In this document: one piece after another, positions 4,496 to 40,346 of the stretch
Numbering within the stretch: position 1 is the first letter of the stretch
Layout: each line of letters starts with the position of its first letter
From: Alphaproteobacteria bacterium 46_93_T64
Lineage (GTDB): Bacteria > Pseudomonadota > Alphaproteobacteria > Sneathiellales > Sneathiellaceae
Assembly (NCBI GenBank): GCA_002163135.1
Contig: MAAN01000008.1
Span: 1-51,776 of the forward strand
Direction of reading: 5' to 3'
Length of the DNA: 51,776 nt
Notes under the pieces: model-generated
Seen by the model: the letters and a program-made list of their open reading frames with translations, nothing else
What the model was told of the DNA's origin: nothing
Databases searched by the model: none
Translations under genes and position numbers: made by a program

Positions 4496-5941
4496 ATGGG
4501 GATTTCAGAAATCATTCTTCGTAAGTTCGGGTTTATTGAACTTCCGATAAATATATTTACTCTTCGATTTTTCGATAGAGACGCTGAAGCGCGCCATACT
4601 GAGATAGAGCTGAATAAGGCTCTGCCGGTGATCCGGATCGCCCTCGCGGGTGGATTTCTTATATACGCGATCTTCGGAATACTCGACTATTACATAATTC
4701 CCGAAATCTATGAGATCGCATGGACAATACGTTTTGCTATTGTCGGACCTATATTCTTACTAACCGCTGCATCCACTTTCCATCCTGTGTTAAGCCGATA
4801 TGCACAACCCTTATTTGCGTTTTGTATGTTTTCCACGGGGCTCGGTATACTTGTGATGATTGCGCTCGCCGATCCAGTCGGCGGGTCTATCTACTTTGCG
4901 GGCCTTGTGCCCGTGCTCGTCTATTGTTGTTGCATCCCACCTGTTAGGTTCATATATGCAACGACGGTTACTCTGATTTTTATGGCTATTTATCAATATA
5001 TTGTGCTGGTTTATAATCCAATTCCGCATCACCTGTTTCTCAGCAATAATTTCTTTCTAATTAGTGTTGCTGTGATGAATATTTTCGCAAGTTACATTCA
5101 AGAGATCGCCCGCCGCAGGGATTATATGAATATGGCTATGTTGGAGGAAGAACGCTCAAACTCAGTCGTTCTGGCGGAACAAGCAAAAGCTGCAAACCAT
5201 GCAAAATCCGAGTTTTTAGCTGTTATGTCTCATGAACTGCGGACACCGCTGAATGCGATCATAGGTTTTTCTGAGATTTTGAAGAAAGAGATGTTTGGTC
5301 CTTTAGGCAAAGATCAATACAAAGAATACTCAGAAGACATAAACAATAGCGGTCAGCATCTGCTAAGCATCATCAACGATATCTTGGATCTTTCAAAAGC
5401 AGAAGCGGGCAAGCTTGTTCTTGTCGAGAGTGAAGTTCAAGTTATGGCATCTCTCTCGTCTTCATTACGTCTTGTTCGTGATAAGGCAACGGAGCAGAAT
5501 GTTCGCTTGATGATGGATATACCGGATGAAGATCACATCATCTGGGCAGATCCAAGATTGGTATCGCAGGTATTCTTGAACTTGCTTTCAAACGCGATAA
5601 AATTCACCCCTAAAGGGGGAAGTGTTGCGATCAAATGTGAAAACCGTAAAGACGGCGCTCTCAGGATCCTTATCGAAGATACCGGTATTGGGATTGATAA
5701 AGGGAATATCGATAGAGTGTTTGTACCATTTGCCCAAATTGAAAGTTCTCTCTCTAGAAATTACGAAGGAACGGGTCTGGGGCTTCCTCTTTCCAAGAAT
5801 GTTATGGAACTCCATGAAGGCAAGATCATGCTGCAGAGTGTTCTAGGGCTAGGTACAACAGCAATTGTTGAGTTCCCAGCTTCTCGTGTAATTACGAATG
5901 CTGTGGCGGAAGAGAGTGAGAAGAGATACCGCCAAGCCTAA
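4496..5941 (+). CDS. Six-helix membrane sensor histidine kinase
   Basis: Predicted inner-membrane sensor kinase of 481 residues. Six hydrophobic helices lie within about residues 40-205, with only short loops and no periplasmic sensor domain. A basic/coiled stretch leads to the HisKA domain with phospho-acceptor His246 in MSHELRTPLNAI. The HATPase_c domain has the N-box Asn366 (LLSNAIKFTP), the G1 box at Asp395 (DTGIGID) and the G2 box GTGLGLPLS near residue 427. No response regulator or receiver domain is encoded beside it. The helical sensor resembles the layout of CqsS/LqsS autoinducer kinases, which is architecture only. The ribosome binding site is weak. It converges on the PilZ-methyltransferase gene 32 bases downstream. 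Ligand unknown. Confidence 0.9.
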   Translation: MGISEIILRKFGFIELPINIFTLRFFDRDAEARHTEIELNKALPVIRIALAGGFLIYAIFGILDYYIIPEIYEIAWTIRFAIVGPIFLLTAASTFHPVLSRYAQPLFAFCMFSTGLGILVMIALADPVGGSIYFAGLVPVLVYCCCIPPVRFIYATTVTLIFMAIYQYIVLVYNPIPHHLFLSNNFFLISVAVMNIFASYIQEIARRRDYMNMAMLEEERSNSVVLAEQAKAANHAKSEFLAVMSHELRTPLNAIIGFSEILKKEMFGPLGKDQYKEYSEDINNSGQHLLSIINDILDLSKAEAGKLVLVESEVQVMASLSSSLRLVRDKATEQNVRLMMDIPDEDHIIWADPRLVSQVFLNLLSNAIKFTPKGGSVAIKCENRKDGALRILIEDTGIGIDKGNIDRVFVPFAQIESSLSRNYEGTGLGLPLSKNVMELHEGKIMLQSVLGLGTTAIVEFPASRVITNAVAEESEKRYRQA

Positions 5942-5973
5942 CTGTTTGTGGCCTGGCCGCCGATCCCCATGGC

Positions 5974-7434
5974 TTATTCTGGTTTGGTCACTACGAGCAG
6001 GTAACAATGCCCTGTTGTATCTGTGAGAACCTCTTTCTTTGCAGCATCTTCGATATTGTCGGCCATGGCCAACATTTCGGCTTCAGTTCTGTATTCAAGC
6101 TTCCAGTCGGTGACATAGTCCAACACCCATTCAAGGCTGCTCTCAGATTCACGCATATTTCCGATGATAACTGTTCCGCCTGGATTAAGGTTGGCGTACA
6201 GATCAGTCATGAAACGTTTGGCACGATGAGCTGAGAGGTAATCGACGAGGCCCACAGTATAGATCATGTCATGCTTGCCAAGCTTACTAAACAGCTTTCC
6301 TGCGGAGAGAAACTCCATAAAAGAAGCGTTTAAGCAATTAACCTTCGCTTGTCCCTTCAACCTTGAAACTTCGCGAAAAGAGTTTTCATAAGCACACGAC
6401 AGCGCCTCATGATCTTGATCAATGAGTGTGAAACTAACGGGGAGTGGTAAACGATCAGCTTTCAGGTAATTGCTCACTTCCTGAGCTGGTCCACACCCGA
6501 GATTTGCCACGTCAAAAGAGCTTTTACCGCGTGATGCGGCATCAATGGCCAACCTGGCTATTGCCTGTTTTACCATATTCATCCGGACGGAAATAAACTC
6601 ACCGGTCGAATTTCCCAATTGATGACAGAATTTATCATATGCTGTGTCGCCCGAAAGTGACAAACTATAGAAGAAATTCATGATCTGGAAATCACCAGGA
6701 TATCCAAGCGGCTTTGTATAGGAACGATGCCAGTTTTTACCGCTCATAAGTTCCGGTAATAAAACGCTCTCGGTATATCTCTTTGTCGCTGTAACGGCTA
6801 TTTGGTCTTCGCGAATATTGTTGATCACTTTGTTGCCAAGTTGAAAAAATGCCTGCCATCTTTTAAAGGACATTTTTTCACATTCCAAAATTGCCTCGCG
6901 AATGCGTTCGTCACGGCGCGGGAAATCTGATGGAATATCAGCTTCTATTTTCTCTAAAGTTGATCGTGCGGACCTTAACAGAAAGACTGCATCGGCGATG
7001 AGTTGTTTATATTCAGTGGGGACATGGACGCCATAGTCCGCCATTTCACTATTGAGAGTTTTTTGAAGGGATATTTCATCGTGCTTTTCCAGAAGACCAG
7101 GGATATCCAGAAATCCCTCTGTAAGCTCGAGTGCAATTTTTTGCCGGCTATTTAAGGGTTCAACACGTCTAACACGGCCTTTCCCTTGAAAGATTTCATC
7201 GGTTCCCAATTTTAGAGAGATAGGGAGGTCTTGTTCGAGATCACCGTCCCAGACATTGCTCGGTGAGCTTACAAAAGACAAGCCACTCATGCTTAAATCA
7301 AAAATCTCAAACGATTCACCTTGGACGTTAATCTGCGGGGAACTGTTTTGCATTAATGTTGACGCTTTGAAGCGTTCTGCCCTGTAGAAAACACGTTTGC
7401 CTTCACCACCGGTGAGTTCTTCGTAATGTTTCAT
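5974..7434 (-). CDS. PilZ domain fused to SAM-dependent methyltransferase
   Basis: A 486-residue two-domain protein, no signal peptide, probably cytoplasmic. The N-terminal PilZ domain has both c-di-GMP-binding signatures: R14xxxR18 and D46-L-S48-M-S-G51. After a helical middle region, a class I methyltransferase domain carries SAM motif I at about residues 310-318 (ANLGCGPAQ) and a later acidic motif (FTLIDQDHEAL). Similar proteins are often annotated as 'extracellular factor 3-hydroxypalmitic acid methyl ester biosynthesis' relatives, but the substrate is unknown here. The start is ATG 7434, preceded by GAGAGTG. An upstream TTG at 7470 also keeps the frame open but has no ribosome binding site. 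The inferred job is methylation controlled by c-di-GMP. Confidence 0.85.
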   Translation of the reverse strand: MKHYEELTGGEGKRVFYRAERFKASTLMQNSSPQINVQGESFEIFDLSMSGLSFVSSPSNVWDGDLEQDLPISLKLGTDEIFQGKGRVRRVEPLNSRQKIALELTEGFLDIPGLLEKHDEISLQKTLNSEMADYGVHVPTEYKQLIADAVFLLRSARSTLEKIEADIPSDFPRRDERIREAILECEKMSFKRWQAFFQLGNKVINNIREDQIAVTATKRYTESVLLPELMSGKNWHRSYTKPLGYPGDFQIMNFFYSLSLSGDTAYDKFCHQLGNSTGEFISVRMNMVKQAIARLAIDAASRGKSSFDVANLGCGPAQEVSNYLKADRLPLPVSFTLIDQDHEALSCAYENSFREVSRLKGQAKVNCLNASFMEFLSAGKLFSKLGKHDMIYTVGLVDYLSAHRAKRFMTDLYANLNPGGTVIIGNMRESESSLEWVLDYVTDWKLEYRTEAEMLAMADNIEDAAKKEVLTDTTGHCYLLVVTKPE

Positions 7435-7615
7435 GTCACTCTCACTTTTTCCGCTACTGAACGCTATCAATGAGCTGAATTTCCTGGGGCCAAAATCAGC
7501 TTTTCAAATATGTCTTTTTCAATTTACAAACCGTATCCGAAACAAGTTCATTTACACCAAAATGTTCTATTTTCTTGATATGGGATATATATTTCGCAGC
7601 AACAACTTGTCATGG

Positions 7616-38300: not shown

Positions 38301-40346
38301 ATGAATAATTATAAAATCATCTCTGCGGTGACTTTGGCGTTGGCGGCCGTTATTTTGCTTGCTCTGGAATGGCAGGTTGAGCGCAGCGCGGTCATAGACG
38401 CGCGTGAAGTACAACGACACGAAGCTTCTAACCGTGCGCAGGATCTGCGAACGCGAATTGCTGCCCGTATTTCAGAAGATATTCACGTGTTGTATGGCCT
38501 TCGGGCATTTATTGAATCCAATCCAAATGTATCCCAAGAAGATTACGCCAAATATGCGGCTTCAGTGAAACGTAGTCATCCAGCCATTCGCAATATTGCT
38601 GCCGCACCGGATTTGATCATCCGTTATGTCTACCCTTATGAAGCCAACAAAGCGGTGTTGGGATTGGATTATAGAAAAGCACCGGTTGAACAAAAAAGCG
38701 GTATTTTTCGTGCCATTCGGGAAGGAAAACCGGTTGTAGCTGGACCAGTAACACTTATCCAAGGCGGTAAAGCAATTATTTTGCGATTACCTGTATTTGT
38801 CGATGAGACAAATGCAGATAGAGAATTATGGGGCATTATTGCAGCGCCGGTTGATACAAAAGTCATCTATGAAGATTTAGATCTTGAGAGTTTTACTGCG
38901 GACTATGATCTCGCCCTTCGTGGCAAAGATGGTACGGGATATGATGGAGCAATTTTTTATGGGGACGAAAAATTATTCTCCGAAAAGGCGGATAGTGTTT
39001 TAAACACGATACTGCTGGAAAATGGTTCTTGGGGCATGGCTGTGAAACCAAAGGTTGGCTGGGTTACTAATTATCAGGGTCAAGGCGTCACTCGAATAAC
39101 GTTCGTGGCGATATTTATTGTCTTTGCCATTTTCTGGTTTTTCGCGGTTGCATACGTCAAAGGCCGGATTGATACGCGAAGTCAAAGAATGCATGTTCTG
39201 CGCGAGAAAACAGAATTTTTAGAAATTCTAAGTCATGAAATTCGCTCCCCTCTACAGGGAGTATTAGCTGCGCAGAAATATTTGTTGGATAATGGGATTG
39301 AAGAGCCCATGCGATCCATTGTGAAAACAGCTCAACAATCTGGAGATTATATCATTAGCTTAATTAATGATTATCTGGATTTACAACGTGCAGAAAGTAA
39401 TAGTTTGAGCGTGTATGACACTCCCGTAAATATACGTGCTGTTCTCGGTAATGTTCTGAATATTGTAGCTGCTGGAAAGAGAGTGCAAGCGGTTTCTCTC
39501 AACCATAATGTTCGTGACACTGTGCCCAAATTACTGATGCTTGATGAGAAAAAAATCACTCAGGCGTTGGTAAATATAGTAGGAAATGCGGTCAAATTCA
39601 CACCCCATGGGTATATCCGTATCACAGTTACCTACGATGAGCTCTCTGTTCCACCTGTGGTACAGATCTCAGTTGAAGATACTGGGATAGGCATTGAAGA
39701 CGCAGAATTGGCGACACTTTTTGATCGATTTACCAGAAGCGCAAGTGGTGAATCTCACTCGGGGTCGGGTCTCGGATTAGCAATTGCAAAAACGCTGATT
39801 GACGTGTTGAGTGGCACTCTTTCTGTGAAAAGTAAACTGGGGGAAGGAACCATTTTTACTCTTTCAATTCCAACAAAAGAGGTGATTGAAAACGATACAC
39901 TGAAGGAGAAATCAGCAGCAGATCAATCTCTGGGCTCGCATGCGGTTGATTTTCTAAAAGATGCTAATGTATTGGTAGCAGATGATGTGATTGTAAATCG
40001 CATTCTGTTAAATGCCATGTTATCTCCGCTCGTCGCCTCTGTGATTACGGTTGATGATGGTCAACAAGTATTGGACGCTCTTGACGAGCGGACATTTGAT
40101 CTCATTATTATTGATCTACAAATGCCTAAGATGAACGGGATTGAAGCGACTAAACTAATTCGTCAGAACCCCAAATCACGGAATATTCCAATAATCGGTT
40201 TGACGGGTGAGGACGCGTTGGAAGCGAAAGATAATCTTGCAGCTACTGGAATGAATGCACTGCTTACTAAGCCTATAAATATAGAACCACTCACAGCAGA
40301 AATGATCAAGGTGTTAGAAGTGTCGCGTTTGCATCGGACTAAGTAG
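38301..40346 (+). CDS. CHASE-domain hybrid histidine kinase with receiver
   Basis: Inner-membrane sensor kinase of 681 residues. TM1 is at about residues 5-22 and TM2 at about 268-288, bracketing a periplasmic CHASE domain (about 45-220; VLYGLRAFIESNPNVSQEDY is typical). HisKA follows with His312 in LSHEIRSPLQGV. The HATPase_c has GNAVKFTPHG, EDTGIGIED and GSGLGLAIAK. A C-terminal receiver domain (about 550-675) has phospho-acceptor Asp605 in IIIDLQMPKMNG and the late Lys in LLTKPI. There is no DNA-binding output, so the signal must pass to another protein. Its 3' end overlaps the convergent CYTH gene by 8 bases. Ligand unknown. Confidence 0.92.
   Translation: MNNYKIISAVTLALAAVILLALEWQVERSAVIDAREVQRHEASNRAQDLRTRIAARISEDIHVLYGLRAFIESNPNVSQEDYAKYAASVKRSHPAIRNIAAAPDLIIRYVYPYEANKAVLGLDYRKAPVEQKSGIFRAIREGKPVVAGPVTLIQGGKAIILRLPVFVDETNADRELWGIIAAPVDTKVIYEDLDLESFTADYDLALRGKDGTGYDGAIFYGDEKLFSEKADSVLNTILLENGSWGMAVKPKVGWVTNYQGQGVTRITFVAIFIVFAIFWFFAVAYVKGRIDTRSQRMHVLREKTEFLEILSHEIRSPLQGVLAAQKYLLDNGIEEPMRSIVKTAQQSGDYIISLINDYLDLQRAESNSLSVYDTPVNIRAVLGNVLNIVAAGKRVQAVSLNHNVRDTVPKLLMLDEKKITQALVNIVGNAVKFTPHGYIRITVTYDELSVPPVVQISVEDTGIGIEDAELATLFDRFTRSASGESHSGSGLGLAIAKTLIDVLSGTLSVKSKLGEGTIFTLSIPTKEVIENDTLKEKSAADQSLGSHAVDFLKDANVLVADDVIVNRILLNAMLSPLVASVITVDDGQQVLDALDERTFDLIIIDLQMPKMNGIEATKLIRQNPKSRNIPIIGLTGEDALEAKDNLAATGMNALLTKPINIEPLTAEMIKVLEVSRLHRTK

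Follow-up and report, generated by a model that had tools for sequence, protein, structure and literature searches.

On contig MAAN01000008.1 of the marine Alphaproteobacteria bacterium 46_93_T64 (assembly GCA_002163135.1), a sensor histidine kinase gene and a PilZ-methyltransferase gene lie tail to tail, and we propose that the pair constitutes a Phc-like module that makes and senses a lipid-derived signal, possibly a methyl ester. Judging from the sequence, we put this reading at about an even chance. The stretch analysed, referred to here as the window, comprises 51,776 nucleotides of a host genome of 4.0 Mb whose closest relatives are Sneathiella. The kinase gene (4496-5941, forward strand) and the methyltransferase gene (7434-5974, reverse strand) were located where an earlier note on this DNA had placed them, convergent and stop to stop, with 32 bp separating the stop codons (5941 against 5974). 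The results computed concern the gene pair itself, its conservation, the homology of both partners, their lipid-gene neighbours in other lineages and their co-divergence.

The two genes stay together far more consistently than chance would predict. Two samples were searched, one of 60 near-relative genomes and one of 385 genomes of the class. Of the near relatives, 27 carry the enzyme and 28 the sensor, and 26 of the 27 enzyme genomes hold both genes side by side and convergent on one contig; in the lone exception the enzyme sits at the extreme end of a contig. The class sample has the enzyme in 35 genomes and the sensor (expectation value, E, <=1e-10) in 48, the sensor being found in all 35 enzyme genomes and on the same contig in 32 (hypergeometric value 3e-39, a figure that ignores shared ancestry). 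The adjacency from which the earlier note started recurs beyond these near relatives: the kinase is convergent with the enzyme in 75 of 80 named loci, which are the best 80 of 181 relatives found. In 72 of the 80 the convergent kinase carries a sensor match, with an open reading frame (ORF) of at least 430 residues in 70, the short ones being those of L071, cut by the contig end, and L075, which is interrupted. The enzyme-kinase gap ranges from -143 to 128 bp in 70 of these 72 loci (median 19). The convergent kinase core is truncated at the contig end in L084, L116 and L125, and the contig ends soon after the enzyme in L073, L119 and L137, in the last after a cyclopropane-synthase gene. In the draft of Sneathiella glossodoripedis (L075) both genes of the pair look interrupted, by sequencing error or decay. 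The 13 sensor-only genomes give weaker matches (E 1.1e-25 or worse); two of them, L204 and L205, were characterised, and in L205 the sensor is on a kinase, the enzyme being absent from the stretch read.

The kinase has 481 residues and no receiver domain, according to its ORF, Pfam and the structure model, and all its parts are read on the forward strand. Its HisKA (1.4e-22) and HATPase_c (3.2e-26) Pfam matches are both above the cut-offs and correspond to a dimerisation and phosphoacceptor domain at 5201-5410, with the motif HELRTP and H246, and a catalytic domain at 5549-5884; a Pfam search of the protein found no receiver domain match. The membrane sensor, delimited by alignment, model and profile matches, spans residues about 28-207 (4577-5116). 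The model (mean predicted local distance difference test score, pLDDT, 82.2; predicted template modelling score, pTM, 0.53) has long helices at residues 28-60, 69-93, 99-124, 127-146, 152-173 and 178-264 joined by short loops, the sixth continuing into the phosphoacceptor helices. This fits a kinase with six membrane helices and without a periplasmic domain, and agrees with the six packed helices that had been described before. Over the 35 aligned rows of the sensor (A5), L63, D64, M121, Y133, G136, Y166, N174, P175, N184, F187 and R207 are invariant. The kinase core is close to many kinases of its own genome (43-51% identity for the best eight), and no model names its partner.

The PilZ-methyltransferase comprises 486 residues on the reverse strand, as judged from its ORF, homolog starts and model, and begins at the ATG at 7434, which is common to the homologs and coincides with the gene end given before; a TTG upstream at 7470 was considered as the start and rejected, the homologs sharing the ATG. 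Its model (mean pLDDT 89.8, pTM 0.75, residues 1-18 below 50) consists of a barrel at residues 33-106, a helical segment at 111-229 and a Rossmann-type domain at 265-486. The PilZ-type barrel together with the N-terminal arginine motif, supported by Pfam in relatives and by the model, takes up residues 14-106 (7117-7395); alignment places within it the arginine motif R14-R18-R21 (7372-7395), in which R18 and R21 are invariant and R14 is not, and the DxSxxG motif DLSMSG at residues 46-51 (7282-7299). The modelled helical segment (6748-7104) leads from the barrel to the catalytic domain, preceded by the aligned signature KPLGYPGD at residues 241-248 (6691-6714), and the S-adenosylmethionine (SAM) methyltransferase domain at residues 265-486 (5977-6642) carries NLGCGPAQE, LIDQD and GLVDYL in model and alignment. 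The signatures KPLGYPGD, LGCGPAQE, LIDQD and GLVDYL are largely invariant among 34 relatives. As a single sequence the enzyme remains below the Pfam cut-offs for PilZ (19.2 bits; cut-off 22.5) and Methyltransf_25 (16 bits; cut-off 27), and PilZ (PF07238) is matched at E<=0.01 by 24 of the 34 family members.

Relatives in other lineages connect the pair with Phc-type operons. A Pseudanabaena plasmid carries a 280-residue enzyme that lacks the barrel (36% identity over residues 185-485); its gene is convergent with that of a kinase bearing the same sensor (hhalign E 7e-26), and a receiver gene comes after the kinase. A Paraburkholderia graminis plasmid encodes a 468-residue relative of the enzyme, then a kinase and two receiver genes, and a phylum sample of 398 genomes yielded six further genomes with enzymes of this type, 54-69% identical to it. 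Gene order was read in four of these six (L195, L197, L198 and L199; L196 and L200 were left out): L197 and L198 have a methyltransferase, a six-helix kinase, a receiver-kinase and a receiver in a row (Pfam), and in L195 and L199 the kinase adjoins the enzyme. The portions of the literature used here give the same four-part make-up for phcBSRQ (PMC10653808) and H230 as the phosphoacceptor of PhcS (PMC11960443); in five PhcS-like kinases the phosphoacceptor histidine falls at 231-261, counted from start codons chosen here. We therefore treated operons of the L197/L198 type as Phc-like, since their make-up matches phcBSRQ and their histidine lies near H230. The enzyme profile aligns with seven PhcB-like enzymes over 385 columns (hhalign E 1.2e-38), the alignment of the barrels alone not being convincing, and KPxGYxGD is common to the enzyme and the aligned PhcB-like, cyanobacterial and Rhizobium relatives. 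The sensor profile scores 66.4 against five PhcS-like sensors (probability 96.5, 144 columns), and 39 unrelated multi-helix membrane proteins used as controls score at most 17.7. The likeness to Phc that had been drawn from architecture and adjacency is thus extended to homology of both partners, measured on operons recognised by make-up rather than on the named Ralstonia proteins. The pair appears to work like a Phc system; we do not class it as one because neither PhcR nor PhcQ adjoins it. The kinase next to the enzyme in L130 (1761-4400) has a kinase-receiver-kinase architecture, as if PhcS and PhcR had been fused. The catalytic half has frequent relatives on Rhizobium plasmids (120 of 138 plasmid records with a match), and at one of them (L141:5689-6723, Rhizobium johnstonii pRL12) a GGDEF phosphodiesterase gene adjoins, a kinase not being among the listed neighbours.

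Sensor and enzyme also diverge together. We compared pairwise distances over 27 non-redundant loci, without a species tree, and found a rho of 0.68 between the sensor and the catalytic domain of the enzyme and of 0.35 between the sensor and its own kinase core. The partial correlation of sensor and enzyme given the core was 0.63, and that of sensor and core given the enzyme was 0.04. In subsamples of 70% (n=1000) the sensor-enzyme value exceeded the sensor-core value in all cases and the core-enzyme value in 99.6%, and over all 67 loci the values were 0.73 for sensor and enzyme against 0.57 for sensor and core. A synthase and its receptor would show such co-divergence, and a peculiar evolution of the kinase core could contribute to the pattern. 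These values bear on whether the two genes stand together by chance or through shared transcription ends, with no joint function. In Alphaproteobacteria they are convergent and do not form an operon, and no terminator was called between them, as chance pairing would allow; against it stand the co-occurrence in 35 of 35 genomes, the changing outer neighbours and the co-divergence itself, as well as related genes that are co-directional in Paraburkholderia and in the beta-type operons and convergent on the cyanobacterial plasmid. We regard chance pairing as very improbable.

Genes for lipid handling are frequent around the pair in many lineages, which fits a lipid signal. An MMPL-type exporter lies directly upstream of the enzyme, on the same strand and 78-492 bp away, in 30 of the 80 loci; a FadL-type porin stands beside the kinase start in 12, in both orientations and with a few cut or partial; and a fatty-acid desaturase does so in 6. 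At least one of the three families is present in 43 of the 80. Pfam named three of the MMPL, two of the FadL and one of the desaturase proteins, the rest being assigned by BLAST to the seed of each. Among NCBIfam models the exporter comes nearest to HpnN, a hopanoid transporter, far below the cut-off of that model. The two genes are separated by a desaturase in L110 and by a cyclopropane synthase in L202; a cyclopropane synthase also adjoins the enzyme in L137. MMPL and FadL families move hydrophobic molecules across membranes. In an Enterobacter ludwigii plasmid (L265:5766-8900) a relative of the enzyme (27% identity) forms the C-terminal part of a ketosynthase-carrier protein; together with the lipid neighbours, this fusion favours an acyl substrate.

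The same neighbours are shared by the chief rival explanation, in which the enzyme would methylate a membrane lipid retained by the cell, and the kinase would read that lipid or the state of the membrane for envelope homeostasis, with no diffusible signal. In other lineages the frequent neighbours of the pair serve lipid transport and modification and are not regulators, and the sole receiver in the ten window genes scanned is that of a distant hybrid kinase (38301-40346), both of which suit such cell-internal sensing. What speaks for a signal that leaves the cell is the presence of MMPL and FadL families, and the homology to PhcB and PhcS types, for which a secreted methyl ester is the product reported in the portions consulted (PMC10653808, PMC11960443). 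We consider cell-internal sensing unlikely, though a serious contender. It is also conceivable that the enzyme is of the CheR-like kind and serves adaptation by methylating the kinase or a partner: 9 of 34 members give weak CheR Pfam matches, phmmer matches to CheR1 occur at E 0.25-0.28, and the enzyme is closely paired with a signalling protein. However, the CheR matches are no better than those to generic methyltransferase models, the L265 fusion points to acyl chains and the neighbours are lipid genes, so that protein methylation seems improbable to us.

Several observations weigh against the Phc-like module. The single beta sensors are uneven, scoring 19.9, 28.3, 42.9, 54.3 and 57.1, the lowest barely above the controls, and, taken singly, the cyanobacterial sensor gives almost no match to the beta profile (probability 2.4). 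The operons that served as reference were fully checked in two loci and are not Ralstonia PhcB and PhcS. Fold matches of the enzyme are to many SAM methyltransferases with differing substrates. No receiver gene was found beside the pair among the three genes scanned on the kinase side and the four on the enzyme side. The lipid neighbours are inherited within clades, so their counts are not independent, and none of 17 Sneathiella-type loci has any of the three lipid-gene families adjacent. Two of the 80 loci (L100, L104) have RNase E instead, with no kinase in the 6 kb read. BLAST sorts the next ORFs outward into 26 clusters for the enzyme side (68 loci) and 28 for the kinase side (66 loci). 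Some singleton clusters may represent spurious ORFs; the large clusters are enough by themselves to show a constant pair in varying surroundings. Finally, the invariant arginines R18 and R21 (34/34) are spaced RxxR. Of the two PilZ motifs that the earlier note took as intact, DxSxxG is kept in the family, whereas the literal RxxxR (R14-R18) exists in this enzyme and is not family-conserved, position 14 being R in only 18 of 34 relatives.

In the barrel, S48 and G51 are invariant (34/34), and 27 members have D at position 46 and 7 have N, so that [DN]xSxxG is kept. The host genome carries 19 GGDEF places, which suggest that cyclic di-GMP (c-di-GMP) is made in it. It has five other PilZ places, four of them over the cut-off, and the same family search did not list the enzyme itself. 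Gating of the predicted synthase by c-di-GMP is plausible but weaker than the other parts of the proposal. By eye, neither PilZ motif was seen in the N-terminal domain of the seven PhcB-like enzymes, and control through PilZ, if real, would therefore be confined to the alphaproteobacterial form. In Ralstonia, a PhcB R22C mutation was adaptive under experimental evolution, as stated in the portion of the report consulted (PMC6989110), and the PhcB-like enzymes share an invariant arginine, which is residue 22 in five of seven by the numbering used here; this suggests that the N-terminal domain may matter in PhcB-like enzymes too.

For the Phc-like module we infer a substrate, a product, a ligand, a control by c-di-GMP and an unlinked response regulator as follows. 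The methyltransferase would methylate a substrate of lipid origin, most likely a fatty or hydroxy-fatty acid at its carboxyl group, to give a hydrophobic compound; the six-helix domain of the kinase would bind this product in the membrane, and kinase activity would change. In Alphaproteobacteria the PilZ barrel of the synthase would make synthesis probably adjustable by c-di-GMP, and the output may run via a response regulator encoded elsewhere. A broader proposal is more doubtful: that this is a lipid-signalling system dispersed across the Alphaproteobacteria, with c-di-GMP acting on the synthase through PilZ, a receptor from the broad lineage of ImcA and adenylate cyclase domains, and a relative on a cyanobacterial plasmid. 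If the proposals hold, signalling of the methyl-ester type would not be a speciality of Ralstonia and its kin, and a two-gene module for it would be scattered through the Alphaproteobacteria (35 of 385 genomes) and extend to a cyanobacterial plasmid. The action of c-di-GMP on the synthase itself would be a direct junction of second-messenger and cell-cell signalling. The system would also supply natural ligands for the ImcA and adenylate cyclase receptor lineage, the ligand-making enzyme being encoded next door to a sensor related to an orphan cyclase receptor.

The pair is flanked by ATP synthase genes on one side and a NUDIX gene on the other (Pfam), and the adjoining window genes encode ATP synthase subunits, a NUDIX hydrolase, a polysaccharide deacetylase and peptidases S41 and M23. 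In the 32 bp gap between both stops (5942-5973) no terminator-like site was called and no unusual fold found. The hybrid histidine kinase at 38301-40346, about 31 kb from the pair, has 681 residues with CHASE and receiver domains.

The comparison with the autoinducer kinases CqsS and LqsS, made earlier on the number of helices, did not hold in sequence. As relatives of the sensor they were rejected: 11 of 11 single sensors, taken from kinases beside CqsA/LqsA-type synthases, score 8.3-18.2, about the level of the unrelated membrane proteins (up to 17.7), the joint profile scores 11.5 and the sub-profiles 14.9 and 15.4, and as a positive control CqsS against LqsS scores 276. The mismatch is in sequence, and the fold may still be common. 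The only PDB match of the sensor profile A3 at E<=1 is ImcA (8wcn; E 9.7e-7), also found with a single sensor sequence (E 7.1e-5), which is a diguanylate cyclase with a six-helix domain according to the portion of PMC10904736 consulted. The A3 sensors give no significant match to the Pfam models AC_N and MASE8 (best E 4 and 0.17), and for two beta sensors the MASE8 match falls short of the cut-off (E 0.0044 and 0.00024). The sensor-only L204 (2494-3774) joins the six-helix sensor family to a class III adenylate cyclase domain and links the kinase sensors of the pair to cyclase membrane domains. In the portion of PMC4821796 consulted, the six-helix module of CqsS can drive adenylate cyclase, such modules are proposed as receptors and the membrane anchor of class III cyclases is called an orphan receptor.

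Set beside known systems, the enzyme resembles PilZ effectors of c-di-GMP in its barrel and [DN]xSxxG, with 24 of 34 members matching PF07238, and differs from them in the RxxR spacing of its invariant arginines and in the fused methyltransferase. The kinase shares with the CqsS/LqsS kinases about six short helices and a kinase output, but the sensors have no detectable sequence similarity and the synthase of those kinases belongs to another family (model NF005526). With ImcA and class III adenylate cyclases it shares a sequence-similar six-helix domain, a sensor relative being present on the L204 cyclase; in contrast to ImcA its output is a histidine kinase, and the YxGL stretch was not seen in the aligned ImcA. 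From Phc of Ralstonia and relatives the pair differs in that the genes are convergent with no adjoining PhcR (receiver-kinase) or PhcQ (receiver), the synthase has a PilZ barrel with [DN]xSxxG, not seen by eye in the seven PhcB-like enzymes, and the kinase core is of the HELRTP subtype, as opposed to HEVNNP in the Phc type. Common to both are an enzyme whose homology covers the helical part, the catalytic domain and a portion of the barrel, adjacent genes, and a homologous six-helix sensor that shares the LD and GL positions.

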